Below are positions 1 to 39,054 of a stretch of DNA of 64,000 nt, in pieces. Each line of letters starts with the position of its first letter. Position 1 is the stretch's first letter. Position numbers and translations under genes: made by a program. The notes beneath the pieces were generated by a model that worked only from the letters and a program-made list of their open reading frames with translations, was not told where the DNA came from and searched no databases. Source of the stretch: Ignavibacteria bacterium (GTDB taxonomy: Bacteria > Bacteroidota > Ignavibacteria > Ignavibacteriales > SURF-24); assembly GCA_025612245.1 (NCBI GenBank), contig JAAXKQ010000001.1, positions 1 through 64,000 on the forward strand. The letters are read 5' to 3'.

Positions 1-55
1 ACAACACGGACCTCTTCGATAAAGAGACTATTGAAAGGATGTTCAGGCACTATGA
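1..55 (+). repeat. Left-edge copy of a block also found in NRPS gene 5
   Basis: Bases 1–55 are identical to 29086–29140, the end of the second condensation domain of NRPS gene 5. The match stops at base 56 and must continue left beyond the window or begin near its edge. A related but diverged copy lies at about 14550–14610 in NRPS gene 3. Confidence 0.8.
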
Positions 56-3000
56 AAGGATATTAGAGGCGGTAGTATCCAATGTAGAAGTCAGGATCGA
101 AGACATCGGGCTCTTAAGTCCGGAAGAAGAAAGGGCGGTCATTGGGGCTCTGGGAAAAAGGGGCGCTCTTACAAAGGAGAACAAAGTCACTTCCTTGCTC
201 TTAAGTCGTGATGCAACCGAAGAGGTCCTGAAGATGTGGAACAGGCGTGAGGAAAAAGAACAGGACGGTCAGGTGAAGTTTTTCCACGGCATCTTTGAAG
301 AACAGGTACTTAAGAGCCCCCATAGGGTGGCAGTAGTTTCAGACCAGGAAAGCCTCTCATTTAGTGAGATCAACCGAAGGGCCAACCTCATTGCCCATTA
401 TCTGAAGAAAAAGGGGGTAGACAAAGAAGACGTAGTAGGTGTCCTTATAGGAAGGAAGACGGGTTTGATTACTTCAATTCTTGCCGTCATGAAGTCAGGT
501 GCAGGATACCTCCCCTTAGACCCGGTCTACCCGAAAGGGAGAATTGAATACATACTTAAGGATGCTGGTGTTAGATTCCTCATAACTGAGGAGCCTTTGA
601 GAGAGTGGTTCCGTGACTTTACCTTTGAGGTGATATGCATTGACAGCCTGTGGGATGAGATATCAAAGGGAAGTGACAGAAACCCTGAGGTTGAAGTATT
701 ACCCGAAAACACTGCATATGTGATCTATACCTCGGGCTCCACGGGTAAACCGAAGGGCTCAGTAATACAGCATTCAAGCCTTTCTAATTACTGCAGGATA
801 ATCGGCAATACATACTCCTCTTACTTCAGACCAACTTCCCAAAGAGTAGTTATGAATACGACCATAATGTTTGATGCATCCATAGCGCAGATGATTTTTA
901 TGCTCTATGGAAACACACTCTATATTCCTGACGAGGATATAAAACACGACAGCATTGCTTTAATGGAATACATTGTAAAAAATGGAATAAACATTCTGGA
1001 TTGTGTACCCACACAGCTGAAAGCATTCATTTCAGGCGGGCTTTTTAACAGAAGTGATTTTAAGCCCTCACTTGTAATTGCAGGCGGTGAGGCACTGGAT
1101 GAGGCACTTTGGAAAGAACTATGTATGGTAGATAAATGCGATTTCTTCAACTGCTATGGTCCTACCGAATGCACTGTAGATTCAGCAATCTGCCGCGTAG
1201 AGGATTATCCCGAAGGGCCGACAATTGGAAGACCTCCTATGAATGTGAAAATTTACATACTGGACAAACGCTTAAATCTCATACCCGTTGGAGCCGTGGG
1301 GGAATTGTGCATCGGAGGAGCACCCGTAGCAAGGGGATACCTGAACAGACCGGAACTGACGGCAGAGAAGTTCATCCCAGATGCATTCAGCGCTGGTGAG
1401 GGCTCAGCTGGTGAGGGCTCAAGGCTCTACAGGACGGGAGACCTGGCAAGGTATAAGCCTGACGGGACAATAGAGTTCATGGGAAGAAGTGACAACCAGG
1501 TAAAGCTAAGAGGCTTCAGGATTGAGCTCGGGGAGATCGAAGAGGTCTTAATGCAGCATGAAATGGTAAATAGTGCAGCCGTTATACTGAAGGAAAGAAA
1601 AGGCAGGAAGTACATTGCATCGTATGTTACATTAAGAGACACATCAACAGGCAGCTTGGATAAAGCACATTCAGATGAGATTCGTGAGTTCCTGAAAAAA
1701 CAGCTTCCGGAGTACATGATCCCGACCTCAATTATAATACTGAAGGAAATGCCTCTTCAGCCAAGCGGCAAGATTGACCGCAGGGCTCTTCCGGAGGAGG
1801 TGAAGGGAAGCACCCCCGAAGAGGAACTGGTGCCAAAGAGCGTCAAAGAGAAAATACTCCTTGAAGTCTGGAAAGAGGTACTTGGAGTAGAAAAAATATC
1901 TCTTAACGATAACTTCTTTGAAATTGGCGGAGACTCAATTCTGGCAATTCAGGTCGTGGCCAGGGCAAACCTGAAAGGATTGAAAATCCTGACAAAGCAG
2001 CTGTTTCAGTATCCCACAATTTATCAGCTGAGCCGTACGGCACAGGAAAATACGGCTGCGGGAAAAGAAGTGATTAAGGGAAAATATTTCCCGCTGACAC
2101 CAATTCAAAGGTGGTTCTTTGAGCAGGATTTCCCAGAACAGAACCACTATAATCAGTCCATACTTCTGGAAATAAATGGAAAAATAAAAATAAATGAGCT
2201 GAATGAGGCTTTCAGTTTCTTGATCGGTCATCATGACGCCTTCGGCCTCAGATTCAGCACACCGGGCAATGGGGATCCGGGCATGGCGCAGTATTACTCG
2301 GAAACCCCGGCTCAGGCAGAAGTGCAGGTTTTCAGCTTGAAGGAACTTGAAACTTCCAGGATTCCACCTGCAATCAGTGAAATTTCCACGAGCATCCAGT
2401 CGGAACTGAATATCAGAAAAGGCCCTCTAATTAGAATTGGATATTTTGACCTGGGAGAAAAAAGAAGTGCCAGGCTGCTCATCGCGGTACACCATTTAGT
2501 AATTGACGGCGTCTCATGGCGCATTTTACTCAGGGATTTGGAAACGCTGCTTTTGCAGTTAAGATCCGGTCAGGAATTAAAGCTTCCCGAAAAAATGGCT
2601 TCATACCAGGAATGGAGTACGAGGCTTCAGGAATATGCCGGAAATCCCGAGACACTGAAGGATTATGACTACTGGAAAGCCACCAGGAGAAAGCAGCCCC
2701 ATGAGCTGCCAAATGATTTTCAGGGAAATGAAAATCCGGAAGGCGATTGTGAGGCTCTGACCTCTTTTTACGACAGACAAAGAACCTGGCAGCTATTGAA
2801 TGAAATTAATTCGAAGTATCATACAAAAACCAGTGAGATCCTGCTTTCGGCACTGTTACTTGCATTTAAAGACTGGACCGGGAAAAACAGCATGCTACTT
2901 GACTTGGAGGGGCACGGGAGGGAAGACATAGGTAATGGCCTGGACGCCTCTGCCACTGTGGGCTGGTTTACCAGCGTTTATCCCGTTTACCTGGAAACCG

Positions 3001-3512
3001 GGAAAGCCGGCGACATAGGGCAGACAATTTGCATGGTAAAAGAGCAGCTAAGGAATGTTCCCCATAACGGCTTTACGTATCAGCTATTGAAAAATTCCAT
3101 TGAAGCGGAAATATCCCCTGAAAAGAACAGAGTACTCAAGCCCGGGGTAATATTTAACTACCTGGGGCAGTTTGACCAGTTAAAAAGCGTGAGCAGCATT
3201 TTTGAAATTGCGCCTGAAGACAAAGGAATTGAAAGGGGGCTAAAAAATGAGCGCTCTCATCTTCTTGAAATATCCGCCCTCATTGTAAACGGATGCCTGA
3301 ATGTGCAGTGGAATTACTCCAGGCGTTTCCATAAAAAAGAAACTATCCGGAGGCTTTCTGAAACCTTTCTTTTCTCAATTACGAAAATAATCGAGCACTG
3401 CATGTCAAGGGACAGCGTTACATATACGCCTTCGGACTTTCAGGACGTCAAGCTAAGGCCTGATGAGCTTAAAGACATATTATCGGAAATAAATGGAATT
3501 GGCGATGAATAG
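3..3512 (+). CDS. NRPS module 1: (C)-A-PCP-E, 5' end outside the window
   Basis: Nonribosomal peptide synthetase subunit that activates one amino acid, holds it on a carrier protein and epimerises it to the D form. The frame is open at base 3, upstream of the ATG at 39, and encodes the end of a condensation domain, so the true start lies left of the window. Counting from base 39: adenylation domain about residues 80–600 (TSGSTGKPKG near 230), PCP with GGDSI (Ser near 633), epimerisation domain about 680–1130 with HHLVIDGVSW near 818, EGHGRE and NYLGQF. The hand-read ten-residue code is DAADIGCVDK. It is closest to Gln/Glu codes such as DAQDLGVVDK, so a D-Gln/D-Glu-like residue is inferred. 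The C-terminal tail resembles the donor docking region that follows E domains. It overlaps the next gene by 8 bp. A 15-bp tandem duplication lies before the A8 region. Confidence 0.93.
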   Translation, partial: NTDLFDKETIERMFRHYERILEAVVSNVEVRIEDIGLLSPEEERAVIGALGKRGALTKENKVTSLLLSRDATEEVLKMWNRREEKEQDGQVKFFHGIFEEQVLKSPHRVAVVSDQESLSFSEINRRANLIAHYLKKKGVDKEDVVGVLIGRKTGLITSILAVMKSGAGYLPLDPVYPKGRIEYILKDAGVRFLITEEPLREWFRDFTFEVICIDSLWDEISKGSDRNPEVEVLPENTAYVIYTSGSTGKPKGSVIQHSSLSNYCRIIGNTYSSYFRPTSQRVVMNTTIMFDASIAQMIFMLYGNTLYIPDEDIKHDSIALMEYIVKNGINILDCVPTQLKAFISGGLFNRSDFKPSLVIAGGEALDEALWKELCMVDKCDFFNCYGPTECTVDSAICRVEDYPEGPTIGRPPMNVKIYILDKRLNLIPVGAVGELCIGGAPVARGYLNRPELTAEKFIPDAFSAGEGSAGEGSRLYRTGDLARYKPDGTIEFMGRSDNQVKLRGFRIELGEIEEVLMQHEMVNSAAVILKERKGRKYIASYVTLRDTSTGSLDKAHSDEIREFLKKQLPEYMIPTSIIILKEMPLQPSGKIDRRALPEEVKGSTPEEELVPKSVKEKILLEVWKEVLGVEKISLNDNFFEIGGDSILAIQVVARANLKGLKILTKQLFQYPTIYQLSRTAQENTAAGKEVIKGKYFPLTPIQRWFFEQDFPEQNHYNQSILLEINGKIKINELNEAFSFLIGHHDAFGLRFSTPGNGDPGMAQYYSETPAQAEVQVFSLKELETSRIPPAISEISTSIQSELNIRKGPLIRIGYFDLGEKRSARLLIAVHHLVIDGVSWRILLRDLETLLLQLRSGQELKLPEKMASYQEWSTRLQEYAGNPETLKDYDYWKATRRKQPHELPNDFQGNENPEGDCEALTSFYDRQRTWQLLNEINSKYHTKTSEILLSALLLAFKDWTGKNSMLLDLEGHGREDIGNGLDASATVGWFTSVYPVYLETGKAGDIGQTICMVKEQLRNVPHNGFTYQLLKNSIEAEISPEKNRVLKPGVIFNYLGQFDQLKSVSSIFEIAPEDKGIERGLKNERSHLLEISALIVNGCLNVQWNYSRRFHKKETIRRLSETFLFSITKIIEHCMSRDSVTYTPSDFQDVKLRPDELKDILSEINGIGDE
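1392..1421 (+). repeat. 15-bp perfect tandem duplication inside the adenylation domain
   Basis: The unit GCTGGTGAGGGCTCA occurs twice in direct succession (1392–1406 and 1407–1421). It adds five residues, giving AGEGSAGEGS just before RLYRTGD. The homologous stretch in NRPS gene 3 (15941–15956) has no such insertion. Confidence 0.9.
1413..1968 (+). repeat. 556-bp block shared with NRPS gene 3 (copy 1)
   Basis: This block covers the C-terminal subdomain of the adenylation domain and most of the carrier protein. It matches 15949–16504 at a constant offset of 14536 with only two mismatches found by eye (near 1460 and 1936). Flanking sequence diverges quickly on the right and more gradually on the left. 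This is the pattern of recent gene conversion or module duplication. Confidence 0.9.
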
Positions 3513-6500
3513 AAGTAACCAACAAAAAGAAATTGAGGCCATTTATCCCCTTACCTATCTTCAGGAGGGAATGCTGTACCACTGCATCTTTAATTCCGAC
3601 CCTGAATTATATTTTGAACAGACGACATGCCGCCTTGAGGGACCTTTTAACGTCGATGCATTCAGGGCCGCCTGGCAGGAGGTAATAAGGCGCCATGCAA
3701 TATTAAGAACATCTTTTCTCTGGAAAAATACCGAGCAGATGATGCAGGTAGCGTTTAAGAATGTTACGCTGCCTTTCAGGCTCCTGGACTGGGTTTCATT
3801 TTCACAGGAGGAGCAGCAAGCAAAACTAAAAGAACTTCTTGAGGAGGATAGAAAAAATGGGTTCAGGCTCGATTCCGCGCCCTTACTGAACATTACCGTA
3901 ATTAAACTCTCTGAAACGGACTTTCAGTTCATCTTTAATCATCATCACCTGATTATCGATGCATGGTCGCAGTCAATTCTCCTCAAAGAGCTGTTCCAGT
4001 TATATGAGGGATTCTGCCGCTCGGAAAATATACGATTAGAAATTCCAAGACCCTTCCGCGATTTCGTCATGTATCTCAGAAATAGAAAAGACCTGGAGAG
4101 TAAGGAATACTGGAGTAAATACCTGAAGGGTTTTCAGCATCCGGCATCTCTTCCATTTGAACGGAAAAATCCTTCTGGTGAGGGCACGTATAATCATGAA
4201 TTTACATTTCTGTCCGCGGAATTTACCGGCAGGCTGAATGAATTTGCGCGCAGCCAGTCTGTGACAGTAAGTACTGTAATTCAGTGTGCCTGGGCCCTGC
4301 TTTTGAGCCGTTACAATGAGGATGATGACATTGTCTTTGGCATGACTACAGCAGGAAGGCCGCCTGAATTTGAAAAAGTTGAGTCAATAATAGGACTGTT
4401 TATAAATACAATTCCTGTCAGGGTCCGGATTAGGAACACCGAAACACTTCTGGATCTTCTGCAAAGGCTCAATTCAGAACTACTGGAATCCAGGGAGCAT
4501 GAGCATTCGTCCCTGGTTCAGATCCATGCATCAAGTGAATTGCCGGGTGAGGTGCCGTTGTTCAGGAGCATTTTTGTCTTTGAAAATGTTCCGATCGAAA
4601 AAAAAATCACCGAGCAAATCGGCTCATTGAGAATAATGGATATCGGCACGAGCTCAAAGACAAATTATCCTCTGGTGCTGGTTGCAGTGCCGGGTGATAA
4701 AATTTCCGTTGGTTTTGCCTATGATGCAAATTTATTCAGCGCCGGGAATGTAAAGACGGTTTTAGTGCATCTTACAAATATACTCACCTCAATTATGCTG
4801 GCGCCTGAACAGAAGGTAAGGAATCTTTCCATCCTCAGTGAAAAAGAACAGCTGGCACTAATAGAAGGCTTGAACCCGGGTCCTCACTCTGCCTATAGAG
4901 TTAACCTCCTGCACGAAATGTTCGAGCGTCAGGCTGCAATTTGTCCGGCTAATCCTGCCGTGAGGTTTGAAGGTGTAAGCCTTAGCTACAAGGAACTTAA
5001 CGAAAGCTCCAACAGGCTGGCAAATTACCTGCTTGCAGAGGGCGTGCAGGAGGAAGATTATATCGCGTTATATACCGACAGATCCCCGGAGATGATAACA
5101 GGCATTTTGGGAATACTTAAATCCGGGGCTGCTTATGTCCCTGTTGATCCCGGTTACCCGGCAGAAAGGATAAGTTACATACTGAGGGATGCCGGGATAA
5201 GATTTGTGGTTACAAAAGAAGAACTGCTGAAGAAAATGGCGGAAGTCCCTGAAAACGCTATTTGTCTCGACAGAGATAAAGACTTGATTTCTGTTTTCAG
5301 CTCACTGAATCCGGGCAAAGATATCTCCTCAGAAAATGCGGCATACATAATTTATACTTCCGGGTCAACAGGAATGCCAAAAGGAGTAGTGGTTACGCAC
5401 TTTGGAACCCGTAACATGCTTGAGAGCATGAAGCATGGCTGGGGGATTAGTTCCGGGAGCAGAATAATGCAGTTTGCTTCCATAGGTTTCGATGCCTCAG
5501 TGCCTGAAATATTCCTTGCTCTTACAAGCGGGGCAGAGCTCTATATTGCTCCCAAGGAAACGGTTTCTTCCATAGAAAAAATTGCGGAATTTATTACTTC
5601 CAGCGGCATAAGCTTCGCTACAATGCCGCCATCCTTATTGTCTATCCTGCCGTGTGAAAGTATTCCTCATGATGTAACCATAGTTTCAGCCGGGGAGGCG
5701 TGCACATGGGATATAGCCCAAAAGTGGTCTGAAAGGATTAGGTTTATAAATGCGTACGGACCAACGGAGGTCACTGTATGCTGCTGCTATAATGAGTATA
5801 AAAATTCCGCAGCTAGGGATTCATCTTTAACTTTCCCCATTGGCAGGCCCTTTGAGAACATTAAATTGTATATACTGGACCGCTTCCAAAAGGCAGTTCC
5901 TCAGGGAATCCCCGGAGACCTGTACGTGTCCAGTCCCGGTCTGGCAAGAGGATATTTGAACAGGCCTGAATGGACGGCAGAAAGGTTTATCCCGGACCCC
6001 TTCTCCCGTGAGGCCGGCAGGCGGCTTTATAAAACTGGGGATATTGCAAAGTATCTTCCTGACGGGAACATTGAGTTCCTGGGAAGGATCGACGGCCAGG
6101 TTAAGATCAGGGGCTTCAGGATTGAGCTGCCGGAAATAGAGGCTGCCTTAATGAGCTGTAACAAAATCCGGAATGCTGTTGTACTGGTAAAAGAAAGGAA
6201 ATCCGCCGAGAAATACCTCGCGGCTTATCTGACTGCCTCAAGCGAGAATTCTATGAGCCTCATGGAAATCAGGCGTTGTCTTTCAGAAAAGCTTCCGGAT
6301 TATATGATACCATCAGAATATATTTTTGTGGATGCATTTCCCATTACATCAAATGGAAAGATAGATAAAGACAAGCTTCTAAAAATCAGCCCTGAAGAAA
6401 AGCCTCATGAAGATAATGGGAGTGCACTTACTCATCTGGAAGAGCTGCTTTGCATAATCTGGGCGGAAGTGCTTGAACTGCCGCACGTGGATATTAACGC

Positions 6501-9500
6501 CAACTTTTTCGACCTCGGGGGGCATTCACTTAAGGCTGCAAGAGTCATTTCACGCATAAGAAAGGCTTTGGGCGTAAACGTTTCATTAAAAGAACTCTTT
6601 AATAATCCAACCGTACACTTGCTTGCCGGGATAATCCAAAAAGGCACGTCTTTAGCTGAAGAGGATAATTCAGGAGGGCAAATAAGGAAATCTGAAAAGA
6701 GGGATAACGGGAATAAACAGTTCAGTCTGTCATTTTCTCAGCAAAGGCTTTGGTTCCTGGAGCAGATGTCACCGGAGGAAGGCGTTTTCAACCTTCCTCT
6801 GGCACTGCGCCTGAAAGGAAAGATAGACCATGAGGCCTTAAGGGCAAGCCTGTCTAAGATTATGGAACGACAGGAATCATTAAGAACTGTTTTCATAGCG
6901 GATAAGGGGCAGCCCTTTCAGATAATTAAGGAGGCGCGGGAGATAGATCTAAAGTATATGGATTTTTCGGGCATGGGAAAATCTGAAGCCGAAGAGGAGC
7001 TAAAGAAGATGGCTTCAGCAGAGCTCAGCATTAGGTTTAATCTCTCGGGTGATCTCTTAAGCAGGTTTACCCTCGTTAAAATAACGAATGATGAGCACGT
7101 TTTACTCGTAATAATGCACCATATTATAACAGACGGATGGTCGATGAGCATTTTTATCCGGGAACTGATCCATTTTTACGGGTCATTTAACGGCGGTCAG
7201 GCCATGCCATTAACCGAACTTCCTGTTCAGTATGCCGATTATGCCGAGTGGCAAAGGGGATGGTTTAGCGGACATGTGGCTGAAGAACAGTTTGAGTACT
7301 GGAAAAATGAGCTCTCAGGAATAAAACCCCTCCTGGAACTGCCGCTGGATTTCCCAAGGCCGCAGGTCCAGACTTTTAACGGCGGAGCTGAGAAGTTTTT
7401 TATCGGGAGGAGTTTAGAGGACAGGCTGCGTGAATTCTGCAGGAAAGAATCTGTTACGCCGTACATTGCGCTACTTTCGGCCTTCCAGATACTTCTAGCT
7501 CGCCTGTGTGACACCGAAGACGTTCTTGTGGGCTCTCCCGTAGCCAACAGGACGAGGCATGAGACAGAAAAGATTATCGGCTTCTTTGTCAATACGCTCG
7601 TCATGAGGGCAAATCTTAGCGGCAGCCCGGGCTTTCAGGACGTAACCAGGGCCAACAGAAAAAAGGTGCTGGCTGCCTTTGCGCACCAGGATCTGCCGTT
7701 TGAGCAGCTGGTGGAAAAACTTCAGCCCGAACGAAACCTGAGCTACTCACCCATATTCCAGGCGGCCTTCGTCTTCCAGAATTTTGCTTCCGCCATTTAT
7801 GAGCTGCCGGGCCTAAAGGCGGATTTGATGGAGCTTGAGAGTAATAGGACAGAATATGACATAACACTCACAATCTCGGAAGATTATAGCGGTGGACTTA
7901 CTGCCTACCTGGAATACAACAGGGACCTCTTTAAGAAAAGTACCGCGCTTAGAATGATAGGGCAGTTTAATACTCTTCTGGAAAACCTGCTGGAAAGCCC
8001 GGATAAGAGCATCTGGGAAGCCCGGATCATGAATCCCGAAGATTTTAGCCTCCTCATGAATAGCTCGATTTCTGAGAAGTACGCCATTCCGGAAGACTGC
8101 TGCGTAAACCATGTTTTTGAAAATGTTGCCCGGAAGCATTCCAGCCAGACTGCAGTTATATATTCCGGGATTCATTATTCGAAGGTTATTTCGCACGAAA
8201 TAACCTATAACGAGCTGAACATAAGGGCGAACCGCCTGGCAAATTACCTGAAGAGAAAGGGCCTTCGGCCTGAAGGCAATGTTGCCGTCTCACTACCAAG
8301 ATCCATTGACATGATTGTTGCCGTTATGGCGGTCTTAAAGTCGGGCGGAGTCTTCCTTCCACTGGATCCGGCCTATCCAAAGGAGAGGCTATATTTCATG
8401 CTGAAGGACTCGGGCACCGGATTTCTGGTTACAACAGGACAGATTGCAGAAGAGCAGTATCCGGAGTTTAATGGAACTCTAATTAAAACGGATAAAGAAG
8501 ATATCCTGATCCAGCAGGAGGATTCCGAAAATCCGGGAAGCGAAATATCCCCGGACAACCTGGCCTATATCATCTATACTTCCGGATCTACCGGAAGACC
8601 CAAAGGGGCAATGCTTTCTCACAAGGGGATGTGCAATCTTTCGAAGTTTCAGCGTGTATTTGAAATTGAAGAGAGTTCCAGAGTCCTGCAGTTCGCTTCA
8701 TCAAGTTTTGATGCCTTTATATGGGAGCTCATTATGGCCCTTTTAGGAGGGGCAAAGCTGTGCATAATTCCGCAGGAGGTGGCTTCTTCCGTAGATGACA
8801 TCGCAAAAATGATTCATGAGACAGGAATTACCGCCGTTACATTGCCCCCTTCAATACTATCCAGGCTGCCGGAGAAAAATGAATTGGGAGAAGACTTATT
8901 CTCCAGCCTCAGGACAATCATCGTTGCGGGAGAAAAAATTCCGGTTGAACTGGCAAATTACTGGTCCAGGCGTATTAAGTTCTTCAATGCATACGGGCCT
9001 ACGGAGGCAACCGTATGCGCCTCAGTGCATCACTGCTTAGAAAAATATGAACATATAGTCCCGATCGGGCGCGCGGTGCAAAACTATGAGCTCTACGTCC
9101 TGGACAAGCATATGAATCCCGTTTCAGTTGGAACTCCCGGGGAATTGTTCATAGGCGGAGCAGGTTTAAGCCGGGGTTATATAAATAATCCTGCACTTAC
9201 GGCTGAAAGATTTCTGCCGAATCCATTCAGTCCCATAAAAGGGGAACGCCTCTATAGGAGCGGGGATCAGGTAAGATATAATGAAAATGGAGTCCTGGAA
9301 TTCATTGGAAGAATTGATTGTCAGGTTAAGATTCATGGCCTCAGGATTGAAACGGGTGAAATCGAGGCTGTCATGCTTGAGCACCCGGGAATTCTGCAGG
9401 CTGCTGTAACAGTTTATGACGACAGTTCAACAGACGGCAGGCTTGTCGGTTACCTGGTTCCAAGGAACGGGGAGGACGTGTCAACTGACACCTTAAGAAA

Positions 9501-10008: not shown

Positions 10009-10074
10009 AGTTCAGTCCCGGCAGAAAGAAGTACCACATTATCAGTTTAATGAACGTGAATGGAGAAAAGCTCT

Positions 10075-18051: not shown

Positions 18052-18052
18052 A

Positions 18053-24523: not shown

Positions 24524-24605
24524 AAGAAAGAGAATAGTTTGGGGTTTAGTTAAAGGATATTAAAATGGTTGCTGCCTGGAAAATAAAGCAATAGGAGACT
24601 GCCTG

Positions 24606-30600: not shown

Positions 30601-32510
30601 TGGAAGAAAAACTTGTGGCATATTGCATCCCTAAAAATGAACACGATCCTGAGATTAAGGAATTAAGAGAATTTCTGGAGAAGAAGGTTCCGGGCTACAT
30701 GGTGCCTTCAATATTCGTGTTCATTGAACAGTTTCCCATTACCGTAAACGGGAAAATTGACAGGAAAAAGCTTCCTGAAGCGAGGCTTGAGCGAAGCGGA
30801 CTGATAAAAGGCTATGTCGCTCCTGCCTCGGAAGCCGAACTTATTATGACGGGTATATGGCAGAGCGTATTGAATATTGACAACATCGGTATAACGGACA
30901 ACTTTTTTGAGCTTGGAGGGGATTCAATTATTTCAATTCAGCTGGTTGCAAGGGCAAACCAGGCGGGCTTCCGCCTGACACCCAAAGACATCTTCCAGAA
31001 TCCCACCATTAAAAGCCTGGTCAGGGCCGCAAATAGCGAACGGATCATAAATGCCGGTCAGGGCATTGTCACCGGTGAAATCCCGCTTTCTCCGGTACAG
31101 CACTGGTTCTTTGATCAAAAGTTGTTTAATATCCATCACAACAACCAGTCCGTTCTCTTTGAAGTTGATGAGTCTCTGAATCCGGAGCTGCTGGGACAAG
31201 TGTTAAAGGAAATATTGCTTCACCACGACGCTTTAAGAATAAGCTTCCAAAAAAATAAAGAAGGCTGGCAACAGTTTAACCGGGGAACCGGTCTGAACAT
31301 CCCTCTTGAAGGCCTGGACGTGTCAGCTTTTTCGGATGAAGAGCTTCCGGGGAGGATTCGAAAGCTCTCAACTGAATTGCAGGGAAGCCTTAATATTAGC
31401 AATGAGCTTTTCAAAGTGGCTTACTTTGATACGGGGAAAAACAGGAAGCATTATTTGCTCATAGTAATTCATCATTTAATAATAGATGCCGTTTCATGGA
31501 GAATATTGCTGGATGACTTCCAGACCGCATACGAGCAGGCATCCAGGGAAAGACAGATCAGGCTGCCTCTAAAGACGAGCTCATTTATGGAATGGTCCAA
31601 AAGGTTAAACGAATATGCGCAGTCGCCTGAAGTTATCGCTGAGTTTAATTTCTGGCAGAAGCTTGAAAACTGCCAGGCCCGAACGGTTCCTTCCGATTAC
31701 CTGCCGGGTGAAGAATATTTCCGGGATAGGAACCTGGAAAGTTCGGTCAGGACTGTTCACACTTCACTTGAAACCGAGGAGACCGCAGCCATGCTCAAAG
31801 AGGTTCCGGCGGTGCTGAACGCGGAAATTATGCACTCTCTTTTGGCGGCGCTGGTAAGAGCTTTCGGCAGAAAAACCGGTATGGCGGGACTTCTTTTTGA
31901 GCTTGAGAACCACGGGAGGGTGGACATATTTCCTGAACTGGATCTTTCGCGTACAATCGGCTGGTTTACGAGTATCTATCCTGTTTATCTTGATCTGGAG
32001 GGCTCCTCCGATCTGAAGGGCTCAGTTGAAAAGGTAAAAGAGCAGCTAAGCCTCATCCCGAATCATGGCATCGGTTTCGGGGTTCTGAAATACCTCTCAA
32101 AAGACGAAAGCCTAAGATCCGGAATGCGGCTTCTGCCAAGTCCGGAAATAGCCTTTAATTACCTGGGGCAATTTGAGGAAAATCCCTCTTTGTCCGGCTC
32201 TTCAACAATGCCTGTAGAGTTATCTAAAGGACCGGAGAGGGATCCCGGCAATAAGCGCTTATATCTCATAGAGATAACTGCGGCCATAGTAAGCGGCAGG
32301 CTTGAGGTAGACTGGTCGTACAGCAGCAACATATATAAGGAAAGTACAATCCTTGAACTTGCCGGGGCCTACCTGGAAGAGATCAGGGCAATAGTAAATC
32401 TCGTGAAATCGCAAAAGATAGATCTTAGAGCAAAGGATTTTTCGGAATTTGGCTGGAACCAGCAGGAAGTAAATGATATACTCTCGGTAATAAACGGCTT
32501 AAAGGAATAA
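24606..32510 (+). CDS. NRPS modules 8 and 9: C-A-PCP-C-A-PCP-E
   Basis: Two-module synthetase ending in an epimerase. C1 about 23–460 (HHIISDGWS), A1 about 482–980, PCP1 near 1035 (GGHSL), C2 about 1096–1540 with HHIITDEWS near 1227 (Glu where Gly is usual), A2 about 1558–2055, PCP2 near 2108 (GGDSI), E about 2160–2634 (HHLIIDAVSW, ENHGR). Hand-read code of A1 is DVGELASIDK, eight of ten positions as in the Orn code DVGEIGSIDK, so a basic residue is likely. A2 reads DATKVGEVGK, eight of ten as in Asn DLTKLGEVGK, so D-Asn is inferred. AGGAG stands eight bases before the ATG. The 82-bp gap before it is the widest within the six-gene NRPS run. The stop codon abuts the next ATG. Confidence 0.95.
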   Translation: MNRNDTGMQKEENIESNEEVYVFPASYAQQRLWFLDQFEPGSPYYNIPSAMRIKGKFNIAAFKSAIEEIARRHESLRTNFSTVEGKPVQVISKGVKVPFDIIDLKSLAEAEKGPEVSRLLTEKAKHSFNLSSEPLIRITVLEIAPEDHVVMVVMHHIISDGWSMGVLVQEMSALYNAYSFGRPSPLDELTLQYADYSLWQKEFLQGERLERQLDYWKEKLGDASQYLDLPFDRPRPAVWTNNGSTLSRTIPQATFDALMEFSRSERVTLFMTLMAAFQVLLHKYSSQEDISVGTPVANRTRREVEGIIGLFINTIVIRTGVSGRDTFRSYLQKVRSATLEGYENQDLPFEFLVEKLQPGRDMSYQPFFQVMFILQNLPLNSQPFNGLELSTAEVSMGTSTFDITLTVAETFEGLDLTMEYNTDLFDGSTISRMLKHYENLLDNILLHPEALISNLGLMDEEEKNRVLYEWNNSEREFEKCNSIHSLFERQAKINPGKIAAVYEEEAISYGELNEKSNRLARKLRKLGLGPEGIAGICIDRSLEMIIAVLGVLKAGAAYLPLDASYPEDRLKFMLTNADVGLLITQSHLEEAIPFHEGPVVYIDKDWEEISRENSLNPAIALDESNLAYVIYTSGSTGKPKGTMVSHASLINAYMAWEESYELTTRATTHLQMASFSFDVFAGDWTRALCSGGKLVIAPREILLEGEKLYSLMRKEGVNIAEFVPAVLRNLIDYLEESRKSLEFFNLLIAGSDVWYSGEYKKFQKFCGRNTRLINSFGLTEATIDSSFFESTNLELPDERLVPIGRAFSNVTLYILDKNFRPLPPGLKGELYVGGKGLSRGYLKLQEVTAEKFIPDPFSGIPGMRLYRTGDLACYLPDGNIEFLGRMDNQIKLRGLRVELGEIETAILEFENIKSAAVIAREDIPGDKRIVAYYVTRDGKAILTSALKQFLSERLPEFMLPSAFVMLSGLPITPNGKVDRRFLPAPDKNELLKELESNYVAPRSVVEGVLAAIWSDILKIQKVGVNDNFFELGGHSLLATQVISRIRNAFKLEIPLRSIFENPTVARLGYVVENEKLKETGLMNKAVLPASRGDSIPLSFAQERLWFLDQLEPGNSFYNIPEIYRIKGKLDKDILEESLNEILKRHEILRTSFFSLNGKARAAIAPELKIKISFTDLSIYSLEEQEKIIEARSTDEAQEYIPLAKAPLFRTSLLKVSEEEYVVIMVMHHIITDEWSSAIMLKEIALTYNALSLSTKPLLPELKIQYADYAIWQREYLQGENLEHQMEYWKRKLTGIPTRLELPYDHPRPLVQSYRGDYMSRELDQRMVKLIRESARQYGVTLFMMMLSVYEVLLYRMSNQNDLVIGTPVANRNKEELEPLIGFFVNTLVIRSNLDGSMRFRELLQETMQTSLEAYTFQDLPFEMLVDALEPERTLSHSPIFQVMFALQNAPEEEYEFTADLRLTPYEVHSMTSKFDLTMLISDKSEESISMAFEYNTDLFDKETIERMFRHYELILECVLKNPDSILSGISLLSREEERAILEKMSGINASPFSPGEMVHVAFENTASLMAGNTALIFMGSKMTFGELNSRSNRLAHYLVKRGIGPETVVGVALRRSPELIISLLGVLKAGGCYLPLDTNYPEDRLHYIIADSNLKLLITEKDLSSKFGAGMAETVLVDLQWKEIEQESSLNPEIQGPFPDNLAYIIYTSGSTGNPKGTMITHKNLTNYLSWCQNAYPLSEETGSVFHLSISFDAAITSIYPALLSGTPVRIIPEGKDIYLLGKELMESGATGTLKITPAHLDILAENLRNEASDGRPADEKIKVGALVVGGENLTGKQIAFYQDNYPGTLIFNEYGPTEATVGCIVHEASRHKTVGSVPIGRVIPGVYACILDDNMSLVGENTPGELYIGGLGISRGYLAKPELTAEKFIPDPFSGVPGMRIYRTGDKAKLLKDGNIEFLGRLDGQVKLHGYRIEPGEIEAVLKQHPEVKEALVLKHDLEEKLVAYCIPKNEHDPEIKELREFLEKKVPGYMVPSIFVFIEQFPITVNGKIDRKKLPEARLERSGLIKGYVAPASEAELIMTGIWQSVLNIDNIGITDNFFELGGDSIISIQLVARANQAGFRLTPKDIFQNPTIKSLVRAANSERIINAGQGIVTGEIPLSPVQHWFFDQKLFNIHHNNQSVLFEVDESLNPELLGQVLKEILLHHDALRISFQKNKEGWQQFNRGTGLNIPLEGLDVSAFSDEELPGRIRKLSTELQGSLNISNELFKVAYFDTGKNRKHYLLIVIHHLIIDAVSWRILLDDFQTAYEQASRERQIRLPLKTSSFMEWSKRLNEYAQSPEVIAEFNFWQKLENCQARTVPSDYLPGEEYFRDRNLESSVRTVHTSLETEETAAMLKEVPAVLNAEIMHSLLAALVRAFGRKTGMAGLLFELENHGRVDIFPELDLSRTIGWFTSIYPVYLDLEGSSDLKGSVEKVKEQLSLIPNHGIGFGVLKYLSKDESLRSGMRLLPSPEIAFNYLGQFEENPSLSGSSTMPVELSKGPERDPGNKRLYLIEITAAIVSGRLEVDWSYSSNIYKESTILELAGAYLEEIRAIVNLVKSQKIDLRAKDFSEFGWNQQEVNDILSVINGLKE

Positions 32511-35500
32511 ATGATGAACAGCAAAGAAGTAGAAGATATTTATCCGCTTTCGCCAATGCAGCAGGGAATGATGTTCCATAGCCTCCTTTCCCCTGAATCC
32601 GGAATGTACGTGGAACAGTTTAGCTGTGTTATTAGCGGAAAATTTGACGTGGTGGCTTTCAGGCTGGCCTGGCAGCAGCTGGTGGACGAGGATGCCGTAC
32701 TGAGGACTTCATTTCAGAGTAAAGGCCTAAAGGAACCCCTGCAGGTTGTTTACAGGAAAGTCGAAATGCCTTTCGGAATCCTTGACTGGCAGTCTTTGAC
32801 TGACTATGAAAGAGAAATTGAATTTGAAAACTACTGCCTCACTGAGCAGATGAAGGGATTCGACCTGGCTAAACCCCCGCTGCTCAGATTTACTATAGCC
32901 CGTGCCGGCAAGGAGTCTTACTACTTTATATGGACCTTTCACCACATTCTTTTGGATGGATGGTCCATGCCCTTGCTTTTCCGCGAGGTTCTGCTCAGGT
33001 ATGAGGCTCTTGCAAACGGAAGGCAGTACTCATTCAGACCCGTCAAGACATACAGGGACTATATTGTCTGGCTGAAAAAACAAAATCTAAAGGAAGCCGA
33101 AGTATTCTGGAGAAATGCGCTAAAGGGACTGGAAGCACCTACACTCCTTGGCAACAAAGGCGGCAGCGGAAAAGAGGAATCATGTTCTGACATAAAGTAC
33201 AGCTTGCCGGAAGAAATTATGAAGGGCGTTCAGGCATTTGCCGTTAAAAACCAGCTCACAATGAACACGATTGTCCAGGGGGCATGGACAATGCTCCTGG
33301 GGGCATACACGGGGCAGAATGACGTTGTCTATGGAACAACCGTATCCGGCAGGCCTGTGGATCTGCCGGGATCCGAAAACATAATCGGCTTATTAATTAA
33401 TACTCTTCCTGTCAGATCCTGCATTTTGCCAGAAGAACCGCTTTGCGAATGGCTTGGGAATTTGCAGGCGAAGCTGCTTGAAATGAGGCAGTATGAATAT
33501 ACTCCTTTAAGCGAGATTCAAAAGTATTCCGGAATCCACACTTCACAGCCTTTGTTCGACAGCCTGCTCGTTTTTGAAAACTATCCCGAGGACGCGCTTA
33601 AAGATTCTGAAATAAAAGGGCTTCAAATTGAGAAACTGAAAACGGCTGAAAGAACAAATTTCCCGCTCGTACTGGTTGTTGTGATGAGTAAGAGCCTGGA
33701 GTTCCGCCTGATTTATGAGGCGGGAAAAATTGAACCTTCGGCTGCCGGAAATATGATGCAAAACCTGAAGGCACTTATTACATCTTTCATAAAGACTGAA
33801 ACAAGGACCCTCAGCGATGTGGAATTTATAAGTGAGGCTGAAAAGCAGGAGATTCTGAAAAAATCGGGCCACATTACGGGGGAAAAGAAACATTGCCTTC
33901 ATGAGCTTTTTGAGCTCCAGGTAGAGAAAACGCCTTACAATACGGCCGTCATTTTCAAAGGGCAGAAACTTTCGTATCTGGAGCTGAATAAAAAGTCCAA
34001 CCAGCTGTCTCATTACCTAATCCGGAAGGGGATTAAAAAAGAAGCACTTGTAGGGGTCATTGTTGAAAAGTCCATTGAAATGATAATTGCAATCCTGGGC
34101 ATCCTGAAGGCCGGGGCGGCTTATGTGCCCATTGATCCTTCCTTACCCGCTAAAAGGGTAAGTTTCATCTGCGAGGATGCGAAGATCAGGGAGATTATAA
34201 CACAAAGCAATTTCTTGGATAGGCTGCCGGGAGTAAGTGCGCGGAAAACGTGCATTGATAAGTTTATGGAAGAACTAATCTATGAGGACGCCAATAACCC
34301 CGAAACAGGCTGCTTGCCTGAAAATCTTGCCTACGTGATCTATACTTCGGGCTCGACCGGTAAGCCCAAAGGGGTCCTGGTTATGCATTCAGGAGCATGC
34401 AATTTTGTACGCGCTCTTTCAGGATCAGTAAATGCCGAGCCATGGGAAAGGTGGCTGCAATTTTTCTCGCTGAGTTTTGACGGTTCAGTCGGAGACATCT
34501 TTCCGCCACTTATCAGCGGGGCAGCGCTGATAATTCCGGAACGAATGGACCTCTTTGACCTTAAGAACCTGGATAAATTCATCAGGGATCATGCAATCAG
34601 CACGATATTTATGACGCCAACGGCGTTGTCGATGATGGCTGAAAATGGAGTACCATGCCTGAAGAAGATCATCTCAGGGGGTGAGGTATGCAACAAGGAT
34701 CTGGCTTTGGCACTCTGCCGGGAAAGAGAGTTTTTTAATGCTTACGGTCCCACCGAAGCCTCGGTTGCTGTTTCTTTATTCAAAGTGAATTCTTCCCGGG
34801 AGAATTACGACTCGCTCCCGATTGGAAGGCCCTTATTAAACTCCAAAATGTTTGTATTGGATCAATTCCTTAGAATTGTGCCTGAGGGCTGCATTGGCGA
34901 ACTATACGTGGGCGGATACGGCATAGTACGGGGTTACTTAAACAACCCGGAGCTGACGGCAGAAAAATTTGTTCCCAACCCTTATCAGACATCCCCGGGT
35001 GAGAGGCTATATAAAACGGGCGATCTGGTGCGCCTTTTGCCGGACGGCAATTTCGAGTTCATAAAGAGAATTGACGAACAGGTTAAAATCCGGGGCTACC
35101 GCATTGAACTCGGAGAAATTGAGTCGGCGATCCGGAAGTGTGATGGGGTGCGTGATGCCATAGTAAAAGTGACAAACGGCAGGGGTGGTGAAAGTAAGAT
35201 ATCGGCTTATATAGTTGCTGATGAGGCAGAGCAGTTTATTGTAGAAAAAGTAAAAAAAGAGCTTGCAAGAAACCTCCCCGGGTACATGGTCCCATCCAGA
35301 GTCATAGTGTTAAAGGAATTTCCGCTTAACAGCAGCGGCAAAATAGACAAAAAGGCCTTGCCGGAACCCGAGGAGGAAAAGCTTGATAACCGCCAGATCT
35401 ATATAGCCCCAAAGGATACCTGGGAATGCAGCCTTGTCCTGCTTTTCGAGGAAATTCTTCAGGTGCACCCCGTTGGCGTAAAAGACAATTTCTTTGACCT

Positions 35501-36464
35501 CGGGGGGCATTCTCTCCTGGCAATCAGGCTAATGGACCTCGTACAGGAAAGGCTTAACCGTGCGATCCCCCTGGTTACAATTTATCAAAATCCGACCATA
35601 GAGGGACTGGCTCCATTTCTGAAAGACAATGGTGAAAATAAAAAGTCTTCGCTTTTAATGGAGCTGAAAAAAAGCGGGGATAGTGAACCCCTGTTTTTCA
35701 TGCACCCTTCCGGAGGAAGCGTGCACTGGTATTCTGAGCTGGCAAAGCTTGTTGACCCCGGGACGCCTTTCTTTGCCATGCAGGCCCTGGGTATAGACGG
35801 CAAGGAAAAACTGGACGATTCCATTGATGTTATGGCCTCAAGATATGTCGGCGGCATTCTACAGAAGCAGCCCCGGGGCCCATATTACATAGGCGGGTGG
35901 TCGTTTGGCGTAATTCCGGCCTTTGAGGTTGCCCGGCAGCTGATGGCACTAGGGGCTGAGGTAAACATGCTGGCTTTGCTGGATTGCGGCCCATTTGTAC
36001 CTTTTGAGGAGCCAAAGGACAGCGCTGAGCTTCTGTCGGACATGTTCAAGAAAAACTTCCCGATCGATGCTGAATTCTTGCGTCAGATGGGGGAGCAGGA
36101 GCGTTTTACTTATGCCTTTAAGATGGCCAAGAAAAATGGAATGATCCCGTTTTACGTCAGGTTGTCGGAATTCTCCTTCTATATTCACATTCTAAAAACC
36201 ATGCAGCAGGCATGGCGCAAATATAAGATAAAAACATATCCCGGGCAGATTACCCTCTTCCGTTCCGAGGAAAGCAAAGCCGATCCCGCTCTGGCTGCGG
36301 ATATGTGCTGGGGGCAGTTTACCTCAAAGCCCGTCAATGTTATTGACGTTCCGGGCAACCATATCAGCATGATGCAGCCGCCGGATGTAAAAGTGCTGGC
36401 CGGAAAACTGAACTCCCTAATCAGAAACTTCAGGGAGAACCCGGATAAAATAAGTGTGAAATAG
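32511..36464 (+). CDS. NRPS module 10 (termination): C-A-PCP-TE
   Basis: Last synthetase subunit, adding the final residue and releasing the peptide by hydrolysis or cyclisation. C residues 1–440 (IYPLSPMQQGMM, HHILLDGWS), A about 463–950, PCP near 1001 (GGHSL), type I thioesterase about 1060–1317 with GWSFG (Ser near 1130), LLDCG for the likely acid, and NHISMM for the likely His. C follows an epimerase-ending subunit, so it should take a D-residue donor. The hand-read code DGGFIGAVAK has no close match that I recall; Ile-type DGFFLGVVYK agrees at six of ten positions, so an aliphatic residue is only a guess. Two ATGs stand at 32511 and 32514; AAGGA sits seven bases before the second. The thioesterase marks the end of the assembly line. 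Confidence 0.95.
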   Translation: MMNSKEVEDIYPLSPMQQGMMFHSLLSPESGMYVEQFSCVISGKFDVVAFRLAWQQLVDEDAVLRTSFQSKGLKEPLQVVYRKVEMPFGILDWQSLTDYEREIEFENYCLTEQMKGFDLAKPPLLRFTIARAGKESYYFIWTFHHILLDGWSMPLLFREVLLRYEALANGRQYSFRPVKTYRDYIVWLKKQNLKEAEVFWRNALKGLEAPTLLGNKGGSGKEESCSDIKYSLPEEIMKGVQAFAVKNQLTMNTIVQGAWTMLLGAYTGQNDVVYGTTVSGRPVDLPGSENIIGLLINTLPVRSCILPEEPLCEWLGNLQAKLLEMRQYEYTPLSEIQKYSGIHTSQPLFDSLLVFENYPEDALKDSEIKGLQIEKLKTAERTNFPLVLVVVMSKSLEFRLIYEAGKIEPSAAGNMMQNLKALITSFIKTETRTLSDVEFISEAEKQEILKKSGHITGEKKHCLHELFELQVEKTPYNTAVIFKGQKLSYLELNKKSNQLSHYLIRKGIKKEALVGVIVEKSIEMIIAILGILKAGAAYVPIDPSLPAKRVSFICEDAKIREIITQSNFLDRLPGVSARKTCIDKFMEELIYEDANNPETGCLPENLAYVIYTSGSTGKPKGVLVMHSGACNFVRALSGSVNAEPWERWLQFFSLSFDGSVGDIFPPLISGAALIIPERMDLFDLKNLDKFIRDHAISTIFMTPTALSMMAENGVPCLKKIISGGEVCNKDLALALCREREFFNAYGPTEASVAVSLFKVNSSRENYDSLPIGRPLLNSKMFVLDQFLRIVPEGCIGELYVGGYGIVRGYLNNPELTAEKFVPNPYQTSPGERLYKTGDLVRLLPDGNFEFIKRIDEQVKIRGYRIELGEIESAIRKCDGVRDAIVKVTNGRGGESKISAYIVADEAEQFIVEKVKKELARNLPGYMVPSRVIVLKEFPLNSSGKIDKKALPEPEEEKLDNRQIYIAPKDTWECSLVLLFEEILQVHPVGVKDNFFDLGGHSLLAIRLMDLVQERLNRAIPLVTIYQNPTIEGLAPFLKDNGENKKSSLLMELKKSGDSEPLFFMHPSGGSVHWYSELAKLVDPGTPFFAMQALGIDGKEKLDDSIDVMASRYVGGILQKQPRGPYYIGGWSFGVIPAFEVARQLMALGAEVNMLALLDCGPFVPFEEPKDSAELLSDMFKKNFPIDAEFLRQMGEQERFTYAFKMAKKNGMIPFYVRLSEFSFYIHILKTMQQAWRKYKIKTYPGQITLFRSEESKADPALAADMCWGQFTSKPVNVIDVPGNHISMMQPPDVKVLAGKLNSLIRNFRENPDKISVK

Positions 36465-36508
36465 AAGATGACCTTAGAACCGCTTGAAATTTTTAGGAGT
36501 AAGAAGTA

Positions 36509-37804
36509 ATGCCGAAAAAACTTTTAAACAGGAATTTCATTTTGCTCATGCAGGGGCAGTCGATAAGCCTTCTTGGTAACCAGGTTTTTTCAATTGCCGC
36601 AATCTTCTGGATCAAGCATCTTACAGATTCAGCCAGCCTGATTGGCCTGATCGGGATGATTTCCAGTATTCCGGCCATTCTGCTTTCTTCTGTAGGAGGT
36701 GCAGTTGCCGACAGGTATTCAAGAAGAAAAATATTGATTTACTGTGACGCCTTAAATGGAATTGCGGTGCTTGTCCTGGCAAGTGTCCTTTATCTGAGTC
36801 CGGGGAAAACGGATCTCGTGCTGGCTTCATTTTTTGCAATTTCTCTGTTGATGTCTGTTGTTAATTCATTCTTTCAGCCTGCCATCAGCGCTGCTGTTCC
36901 GGACCTTGTCCCGCGTGAAAAGATTACGGGGGCCAATTCACTGGACCAGGCTTCCGAGCAGGTAATGACCTTTTTGGGGCAGGGTATAGGAGGGGTTCTC
37001 TTCAGGATGCTCGGGGCCCCGATGCTGATCTTCTTTAACGGGGTTTCATTTCTCTTTGCCGCCATCTGCGAGGTCTTTATTGAAATTCCGCAGAAAATTC
37101 CGGAAAAAGGGAAGGACTGGAAGGACCAGATGGCGCATTTTAAGAAGGATGTAATTGAAGGTTTCAGGTACGTATGGAACAACCAGGGGCTGAAGAAAAT
37201 GACGCTTCTTTTTACGTTTATCAACTTTATGACTGTGCCTGTAATAGTGCTGCTTCCCTTTTACGTGGAGGATTTCTTGAAGGCCACGGCCGACTGGTAC
37301 GGATTTCTGCTTGCGATGTATGGTATAGGTTCCATGTTAGGCTATATCCTTGCCGGTTTGCTAAAGCTGAAGGGAAGACTAAGGGCCTTTACGGTACTAA
37401 CATTCTTTTTAGCCGAATCCTCCGGCTTTGGATTCCTGGGGCTCATAAGTTCAACTGCAACTGCACTCGTGCTGGCGGTTATAGCAGGAACACTGAACGG
37501 GTTTGTAGGGGTTTATATAATTACAGCATTGCAGGTGACCACTCCAAGCCCTATGAGGGGAAGGGTATTCGGATTCATTTCTTCTTTGAGCGGGGCAATG
37601 GTTCCGCTTAGCATGGGGCTTGCGGGATTTATATTTGATGCAACGGGTAAGAACATACAGCTCATCTATATGAGCTGCGGCCTAATAATGTTCCTTATAG
37701 CCCTTGTTTCCCTGTTTAGCGGGGATATCAGGAATTTCCTTTCCAATGATAATGATTCAGATGAGGTTAAAATAGGCAGCGAAGTAGAAAGCGCGGTGAA
37801 ATAG
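36509..37804 (+). CDS. MFS transporter, likely peptide exporter
   Basis: Integral membrane transporter of the major facilitator superfamily, 431 aa with about 12 hydrophobic segments. The loop ADRYSRRK near residue 70 is the typical MFS motif between helices 2 and 3. The overall look is that of the EntS/DHA3-like exporters often found beside siderophore and NRPS genes. AGGAG lies nine bases before the ATG. The gene follows the thioesterase-bearing synthetase after 44 bp with no terminator between, so it is probably cotranscribed and exports the peptide or protects the producer. The substrate cannot be read from the sequence. Confidence 0.88.
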   Translation: MPKKLLNRNFILLMQGQSISLLGNQVFSIAAIFWIKHLTDSASLIGLIGMISSIPAILLSSVGGAVADRYSRRKILIYCDALNGIAVLVLASVLYLSPGKTDLVLASFFAISLLMSVVNSFFQPAISAAVPDLVPREKITGANSLDQASEQVMTFLGQGIGGVLFRMLGAPMLIFFNGVSFLFAAICEVFIEIPQKIPEKGKDWKDQMAHFKKDVIEGFRYVWNNQGLKKMTLLFTFINFMTVPVIVLLPFYVEDFLKATADWYGFLLAMYGIGSMLGYILAGLLKLKGRLRAFTVLTFFLAESSGFGFLGLISSTATALVLAVIAGTLNGFVGVYIITALQVTTPSPMRGRVFGFISSLSGAMVPLSMGLAGFIFDATGKNIQLIYMSCGLIMFLIALVSLFSGDIRNFLSNDNDSDEVKIGSEVESAVK

Positions 37805-37889
37805 ACAATAAAAGTAAGAGTACTCAACGGTCATTTTACGTTACAATTAACACTATTAAAGTTATTAATCACAAAACAGTGAGGGCAAA

Positions 37890-38123
37890 ATGAGAGAGGA
37901 TGAAAAAGAAGATACCACAATCTATAAGGTGGTTGTAAATCATGAGGAACAGTATTCCATCTGGCCTGCGGACAGGGAAAACCCCCTGGGCTGGAAAGAC
38001 GCCGGGAAAGTGGGACTGAAGCCTGAATGCCTGTCATACATTAAAGAAGTGTGGACTGATATGCGTCCTTTAAGCCTGAGAAAAAAAATGGAAGAAGCAC
38101 AGGCAAAAAAAGGTGAGAGCTGA
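37890..38123 (+). CDS. MbtH-like NRPS accessory protein
   Basis: Small (77 aa) protein that binds NRPS adenylation domains and supports their folding or activity. It has the family signature: [10 protein letters not shown] near residue 17, GW before the centre, then [18 protein letters not shown]. The conserved Trp residues are present. The start has GAGGG five bases upstream. It lies 85 bp after the exporter and before the phosphopantetheinyl transferase, as expected for an NRPS operon. Which of the ten A domains need it is unknown. Confidence 0.93.
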
Positions 38124-38265
38124 GGCGGAGAAGAGTTAAAGCCGGATGTAATGACCTAAACTGGCGGCCATTCCCTTAGAAAAAATGAGGATGCGCCGCC
38201 TTTTGAAGCCCGGTTATTTCTCCCATTTGGAAAGAACAAGGATTAAGTTTTAACGAAAGCGGAAA

Positions 38266-39054
38266 ATGCAAGAAGAAAAATATCTGTTAAAGGAAGATGA
38301 GGTTCACGTTTGGCATGTTGATGCCGGTTTAGTCTCTTCCTCGGAGTTTTGGAATGTCCTGAACGGCGAGGAGACAGAAAGAGCCCGGAGGTACCATTTC
38401 TCCAAAGATAGGGAGAATTTCCTGGTTTCAAGAGGGGTGCTCAGAAGCCTTATTGCCCATTACACAAATAATTCTCCTGAAAATGTGGAGTTTCACTATA
38501 ACAAGTATGGTAAACCTTTTCTAAAAGGGGAAGAGAGCCTGAAATTTAATGTGTCTCATTCAGGCAGAATTTTGCTTTTTGCATTTGCCCGGAATAAAGA
38601 GCTTGGAATTGACGTCGAACAGATCCGACATGACTTTGCAGAGCTTGAGATCGCAGGCAGCTTTTTTTCCAGCAGTGAGGTCCTTCAGCTTTCTGTTTTG
38701 CCTGAAGAAATAAGAAAGCTTGCTTTCTTCAAGTGCTGGACGCTCAAGGAGGCATATATAAAGGCAAAGGGAAAGGGGCTATCCGTCCCCCTCGATTCAT
38801 TTGACGTTTCAGTCTGCCCCGAGGCTGCATCTGAAGTCAAGGAACTTCTCAGAGTGCCTGATGACCCGGAGGAAAGCAGGAAATGGAAAATCTTCAGCCT
38901 TAGTGTTGCCCTGGGCTATTGTGCCGCACTTGCAGTTGAGGGGGAGCCCCTGGAAATAAGGCACTTTTCCTGGACTGATGAAGTTACCAGCGGTCCATCT
39001 TTTTTAGGCCGGCAGAAATTCGGTTGCAATAAACCGGTAAATTCCATTAAATAA
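38266..39054 (+). CDS. Sfp-type 4'-phosphopantetheinyl transferase
   Basis: Transfers phosphopantetheine from CoA to the Ser of each carrier protein, turning apo-PCP into holo-PCP. 262 aa, two-lobed Sfp family. Visible motifs: VSRGVLR near residue 55, FNVSHSG near 95, GIDVE (Asp116 and Glu118, Mg binding) and WTLKEAYIKAKGKGL from Trp158 (Glu162). The length fits Sfp/Gsp enzymes, which activate secondary-metabolite carriers. The ribosome site is weak (GGAAA directly before the ATG), so a slightly later start cannot be excluded. It is the last recognisable gene of the NRPS cluster. Confidence 0.93.
   Translation: MQEEKYLLKEDEVHVWHVDAGLVSSSEFWNVLNGEETERARRYHFSKDRENFLVSRGVLRSLIAHYTNNSPENVEFHYNKYGKPFLKGEESLKFNVSHSGRILLFAFARNKELGIDVEQIRHDFAELEIAGSFFSSSEVLQLSVLPEEIRKLAFFKCWTLKEAYIKAKGKGLSVPLDSFDVSVCPEAASEVKELLRVPDDPEESRKWKIFSLSVALGYCAALAVEGEPLEIRHFSWTDEVTSGPSFLGRQKFGCNKPVNSIK

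Follow-up and report, generated by a model that had tools for sequence, protein, structure and literature searches.

The window, a stretch of 64,000 nucleotides (contig C14:1-64000, its base 1 being the contig start), very probably holds most of a lipopeptide assembly line that starts with a fatty acyl-AMP ligase (FAAL) and comprises seven NRPS genes with twelve modules. This line would run from C30:25610, on a second contig of the same genome, to window position 36464, and is accompanied by an exporter, an MbtH protein and a phosphopantetheinyl transferase (PPTase). We also lean slightly towards the broader reading that it represents an undescribed family of FAAL-lipopeptide lines, united by a conserved Phe-Orn-Asn core and found in two families of a scarcely studied FCB-group order (probably Ignavibacteria). 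According to this reading, gene conversion has acted on C3/C11 and A8/A9 in both congeners, on modules 6/10 in one and on A3/A7 in the other, and the A domain of module 8 was recently replaced, which changed the peptide.

Six NRPS open reading frames, all on the forward strand, fill most of window positions 1-39054, followed by the MFS, MbtH and PPTase genes (Table 1). A search with HMMs built from the NRPS domains of this genome (window and contig C30) gave the domain order (C tail)-A-T-E / C-A-T-C-A-T / C-A-T-C-A-T-E / C-A-T-C-A-T / C-A-T-C-A-T-E / C-A-T-TE, with ten A domains and with E domains after the first, fifth and ninth of these. Five of the six window NRPS proteins were searched with Pfam, and the protein at 24606-32510 was assigned by Pfam Condensation matches and the own-domain HMMs. 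The terminal TE belongs to the thioesterase family PF00975, with 4zxh (107 bits) as its nearest solved chain. Every domain long enough to hold its HHxxxD, carrier-serine or TE motif has preserved it, which together with the very small domain E-values excludes a chance match. With C, A and T domains that keep their catalytic motifs and a TE at its end, the line is a type I multimodular NRPS. The spacing among the nine window genes is only -20 to 142 bases, and hence the six NRPS genes and the MFS, MbtH and PPTase genes are likely to form a single operon. A preliminary description of the window had already recognised six contiguous NRPS genes with ten modules, E domains for three D residues, a terminal TE, and the exporter, MbtH and phosphopantetheinyl transferase, all of which our searches bear out. 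It had also considered the pathway complete except at the left edge, in agreement with a window that begins at a contig start and a front end that lies on C30. Of the decapeptide or longer product that it proposed, the decapeptide did not hold, because two further modules and a FAAL-ACP unit on C30 make this a lipo-dodecapeptide line.

Table 1. Features of the assembly line and its A-domain codes. Positions refer to the window unless a contig is named; "own" is the genome of the window and G001 its congener.
Feature	Position	Strand	Evidence, comparison or predicted residue
X1: FAAL-ACP-C-A-T	C30:25610-31075		Pfam, own-domain HMMs
X2: C-A-T-C, cut at contig end	C30:31157 to end		own-domain HMMs
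NRPS gene 2, 5' part	C30:31157-35076		on C30
NRPS gene 2, 3' part: C3 tail, A3, T (GGDS), E	3..3512	+	left-open ORF; HMM/Pfam
NRPS gene 3: C-A4-T-C-A5-T	3493..10008	+	first C in post-E (DCL-type) clade
NRPS gene 4: C-A6-T-C-A7-T-E	10060..18051	+	Pfam, HMMs
NRPS gene 5: C-A8-T-C-A9-T	18053..24523	+	Pfam, HMMs
NRPS gene 6: C-A10-T-C-A11-T-E	24606..32510	+	Pfam Condensation, HMMs
NRPS gene 7: C-A12-T-TE, TE motif GWSFG	32511..36464	+	Pfam, HMMs
MFS transporter, probable exporter	36509..37804	+	87% identity to G001 counterpart
MbtH-like protein, 77 aa	37890..38123	+	PF03621, E 1e-21; 95% identity to G001
Sfp/HetI-type 4'-phosphopantetheinyl transferase (PPTase)	38266..39054	+	63% identity to G001
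754-base stretch in module 11 C domain	28387..29140	+	both ends equal contig ends of C30/C14
A3-T tract, 556 bases	1413..1968	+	99.6% identity to 15949-16504
A7-T tract, 556 bases	15949..16504	+	99.6% identity to 1413-1968
A8 tract	19551..20932	+	exact over 1382 bases to 22776-24157
A9 tract	22776..24157	+	exact over 1382 bases to 19551-20932
Module 1 code			DAENIGAIT, own = G001; Arg/Lys-like
Module 2 code			DAQDLGMVE, own = G001; Gln
Module 3 code			DAADIGCVD, own = G001; Gln/Glu-like
Module 4 code			DAPTVAAVC, own = G001; Tyr/Phe-like
Module 5 code			DAWTIAAVC own, DAWTIAGVC G001; own Phe-like
Module 6 code			DAVDLGMVE own, DAQDLGTVD G001; own Gln/Glu-like
Module 7 code			DGLDIGAVD own, DARDLGEVA G001; own Gln/Glu-like
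Module 8 code			DAWTVAAVC own, DACLVGAVC G001; own Phe/aromatic
Module 9 code			DAWTVAAVC, own = G001; Phe/aromatic
Module 10 code			DVGEIGSID, own = G001; Orn
Module 11 code			DATKVGEVG, own = G001; Asn-like
Module 12 code			DGGFIGAVA own, DGAVIAAVG G001; own perhaps aliphatic, weak fit

Three further C-domain matches of the same genome lie on C30, the last of them cut by the contig end. The last 55 bases of C30 are identical (100%) to window positions 28387-28441, and the first 55 bases of C14 (window 1..55, + strand) are an exact copy (100%) of 29086-29140. A second copy of this 754-base stretch, belonging to the module 3 C domain, would thus have collapsed at the contig break, and the end matches would be the trace of a 55-base-overlap assembly that broke at a repeat with its other copy intact. 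If the repeat is passed twice, the linear path would be C30, repeat, C14:1-28386, repeat and the rest of C14. X2, the first window ORF and the intact copy share the same codon phase at either end, and gene 2, once joined, would encode 2691 aa, compared to 2697 aa in G001, the sole genome of the same genus among the 96 compared. On contig C18 of G001 the same seven NRPS genes are contiguous, encoding FAAL-T-C-A-T (1814 aa), C-A-T-C-A-T-E (2697 aa), C-A-T-C-A-T (2173 aa), C-A-T-C-A-T-E (2672 aa), C-A-T-C-A-T (2126 aa), C-A-T-C-A-T-E (2628 aa) and C-A-T-TE (1320 aa). Both flanks of this cluster are syntenic, one with C30 genes and the other with window genes. The ~644 bases between C30 and C14 are absent from the assembly, and we infer their content. 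An exact 55-base overlap was found at neither of two other contig ends searched (the right end of C14 and the left end of C30), which leaves k = 55 uncorroborated; both ends lie at repeats, the former resembling C22:1-62 at 98% and the latter a dispersed repeat. The end matches, the agreeing phases and the contiguous G001 cluster with its shared flanks argue for a twelve-module lipopeptide line that begins on C30 and continues in the window, with the complete order FAAL-ACP-C-A-T / C-A-T-C-A-T-E / C-A-T-C-A-T / C-A-T-C-A-T-E / C-A-T-C-A-T / C-A-T-C-A-T-E / C-A-T-TE.

Several neighbouring genes are shared with G001 as well. Directly upstream of the FAAL gene lies a LytTR response regulator (C30:24573-25361; 87% identity in G001), which may possibly regulate the NRPS operon. 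Two proteins adjoining the cluster in the window (39628-40740 and 41143-44487) carry T9SS type A sorting tails, are probably secreted, and are conserved in G001 (78% and 63%, respectively). Such tails suggest a host of the FCB group, and their motif hints at Ignavibacteria. A sigma-70 family factor at 47301-48161 is 99.65% identical to that of G001, the highest value of all ORFs compared.

Residues 16-600 of X1 best matched the solved chains 7r7g (538 bits) and 3kxw (406 bits). The entry name of 7r7g is 'Polyketide synthase', and we take it to be a FAAL. The next matches were FadD23, FadD32 and FadD28 fatty-acid-AMP ligases and a fatty acyl-adenylate ligase (218-296 bits), and the first ordinary CoA ligase chain reached 91 bits. 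Three chains that match X1 in FAAL fashion bear the entry names acyl-CoA synthase or CoA ligase; presumably they are of the FadD32/FadD28 types. X1 is also matched by the NCBIfam FAAL models, at scores below the curated cut-offs. X1 also contains a DIP2-like AMP C-terminal domain and an ACP (FGMDSL at residue ~671), such that an N-terminal FAAL adjoins an ACP, followed by a C domain and then by C-A-T modules in gene order. In the C/E domain tree, the C domain of X1 clusters with the post-ACP C domain of a more distant relative, G067 (99/100). Judged by the sequence features tested, the line belongs to the FAAL-initiated lipopeptide NRPSs.

The A-domain codes consist of nine positions read, to which a script added the tenth letter, K, unread. 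Their columns were set by GrsA motif positions, not by a structure-based predictor, and the GrsA code for Phe and a code for Orn served as references; 1AMU was a match for A8 in the solved-structure search. Seven of the twelve codes are identical in G001, and an eighth differs at one of nine positions. We know of no code near that of module 12. The substrate classes that had been read by hand for the ten window modules all fit the computed codes, although the last (aliphatic) fits only weakly. Set against the codes in PMC12283262, that of module 1 departs from the Arg cluster only at position 278, with Lys as the alternative; module 2 shares seven of nine positions with DAQDLGVVD(K), which is assigned to Glu and Gln; and module 11 shares seven of nine with DLTKIGEVG(K) of the Asp/Asn section. 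The predicted product would be acyl-Arg/Lys-Gln-D-(Gln/Glu)-Tyr/Phe-Phe-Gln/Glu-D-(Gln/Glu)-Phe-Phe-Orn-D-Asn-X.

The stereochemistry of this prediction was compared with a tree of C and E domains (n = 45) from the own genome, G001 and G067, built without the two C fragments that flank the contig break (<300 aa). The E domains (n = 8) form a single clade, and the eight C domains that directly follow an E domain form another (100/99; three own, three from G001 and two from G067). The latter clade supports collinearity with gene order and the predicted D residues at positions 3, 7 and 11. The motif GGDS occurs in all three own T domains before E, and also in that of module 2, where no E follows. 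C3 (on C30, the second C of X2) and C11 (window 27885-29228) carry HHxxxDE, not HHxxxDG, in both the own genome and G001.

In the proposed working of the line, the PPTase would prime the carrier domains, and the FAAL would turn a fatty acid into acyl-AMP and then load it onto the adjoining ACP. The first C domain would couple the acyl group to a basic amino acid (Arg/Lys-like), after which eleven more modules would extend the chain, with gene order as residue order. The E domains would invert residues 3, 7 and 11, a DCL-type C domain opening the next protein each time. The terminal TE would free a lipo-dodecapeptide, linear or cyclised, and the MFS protein would export it. NRPS lines can skip or iterate modules. 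The substrates, stereochemistry, lipid, release mode and activity of the product are those we infer; an ordinary guess would be a membrane-active or antibiotic lipopeptide.

Among 391 genomes, drawn evenly from the class with two candidates scored per genome, the Orn-Asn protein was matched at E 1e-250 in 16 (own included), and identity reached at least 50% only in the own genome, G001, G004, G067, G088 and G094. The TE-bearing last protein was matched at E 1e-50 or better in 25 of 96 genomes (own included), about half of them only via a lone 500-residue adenylate-forming enzyme. A search of this protein against named genomes, from which records of the own genome were possibly left out, gave no close relative; the 17 loci returned belong to Pseudomonas, Pseudoalteromonas and a small number of MAGs, with 34-40% identity in the best segment. 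All five relatives have a match to the FAAL, at 80% in G001 and at 47-49% in G004 (a fragment), G067, G088 and G094, and in G088, G094 and G004 it lies on another contig than the NRPS line; G004 was examined on three contigs. The Phe (or Phe-like)-Orn-Asn block of codes is kept in the own genome, G001, G067, G088 and G004; these five represent three genera from two families. MFS, MbtH and PPTase genes accompany the line in G001, G067 and G088, and are arranged alike in the latter two. G067 starts with FAAL-ACP-KS-AT-DH / ER-KR-ACP (one gene, read in two stretches), KS-AT-ACP-C-A-T and KS-AT-KR-ACP before C-A-T, and both G067 and G088 have two additional modules beyond Asn, with no E behind Asn. 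The conserved block and the different start of G067 suggest an old segment within a peptide whose two ends vary. G002:C9 and G056:C2, from two other genomes of the order, hold another large NRPS line; its codes (DLWN-GMIH, DIYNN--TY, DVQTISQVV) are similar, and it was set aside as a different line.

Within each congener, the repeated tracts are far more alike than between the two. In G001, the exact tracts span 1799 bases (modules 6/10), 678 bases (C3/C11) and 646 plus 323 bases (A8/A9). Between the genomes, the own C11 stretch is ~72% identical to both C11 and C3 of G001, the own A8 tract is 70-73% identical to its G001 counterpart, and A domains at matching positions share 56-79% identity. 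Within-genome copies are thus far closer than the ~72% between genomes, which indicates that C3/C11 and A8/A9 were homogenised independently in both congeners; for module 3 of the own genome, the sameness of C3 and C11 would follow from the contig break. Concerted evolution by recurrent gene conversion between the line's own modules is the natural reading of these sequences. In module 8, the own code equals that of module 9, whereas G001 has DACLVGAVC, and together these point to a natural A-domain replacement.

The main rival to gene conversion would explain the long exact repeats (A8/A9, A3/A7, C3/C11) as artefacts of the assembly, which we consider unlikely. The assembly did break at the C3/C11 copy, so such repeats are hard for the assembler, yet the longer 1382-base tract was passed. 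Moreover, the pairs C3/C11 and A8/A9 recur among the long exact tracts of G001, which is another assembly, while exact tracts of at least 31 bases were absent from the G067 stretches searched and amounted to one of 31 bases in G088:C121. The flanks of the own tracts also drop at once to 0.23-0.50 identity (0.23-0.47 for A8/A9). Decay or silence of the cluster, with no product, is less probable still. The strong divergence of A domains between the congeners would suit it, but the six window ORFs remain open over 3.5 to 8 kb, their catalytic, carrier and TE motifs are intact, and exporter, MbtH and PPTase have stayed with the line in three relatives. That the window holds a self-contained decapeptide system, short of a small gene piece at its left edge, with the C30 genes forming another cluster, is very improbable: the assembly does keep C30 apart from C14 and lacks the bases that would bridge them, but the exact 55-base matches to both ends of one internal stretch, the agreeing codon phases and the contiguous, identically flanked set in G001 tell against a separate C30 cluster.

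The FAAL-initiated line resembles the iturin, mycosubtilin and puwainaphycin lines in having an acyl-AMP ligase start ahead of NRPS modules; as described in the available part of PMC4219810, the ligase of these NRPS/PKS systems activates a fatty acid and hands it to the NRPS, and the puwainaphycin line likewise terminates in a TE. However, X1 consists of FAAL-ACP-C-A-T only, with the FAAL-ACP feeding the first C domain directly and neither a PKS nor an aminotransferase in between, and therefore the line is not of the iturin/puwainaphycin subtype. The clusters of G067, G088, G004 and G094, from the same taxonomic order, share the FAAL match and, in the first three, Phe-Orn-Asn, but the PKS-containing start of G067 differs from our line, which is without PKS. 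The chitinopeptins, cyclic lipopeptides of Bacteroidetes, are also made by large NRPS lines with embedded E domains, yet in the passages of PMC9248904 considered these have 14-15 residues and C-starter domains, with no mention of a FAAL. In the wollamide and desotamide lines, intragenomic recombination inside A domains alters specificity (PMC9205934, in excerpt), similar to what we propose for module 8. Our case differs in that a single line supplies both the donor and the recipient modules, and that C domains are homogenised too. Judged by titles and abstract openings, the papers that our literature searches found describe no such cluster.

The mechanism of the line is ordinary, and it is probably the product and the group that are new. 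The truncated decapeptide is replaced by a complete, checkable prediction of an acyl group and twelve residues, the third, seventh and eleventh of them D. It concerns a group for which our literature searches showed no natural product. Furthermore, two congeneric lines with conserved beside variable modules and fresh exact tracts would offer natural cut sites for A- and C-domain swaps, which may be useful to NRPS engineering.
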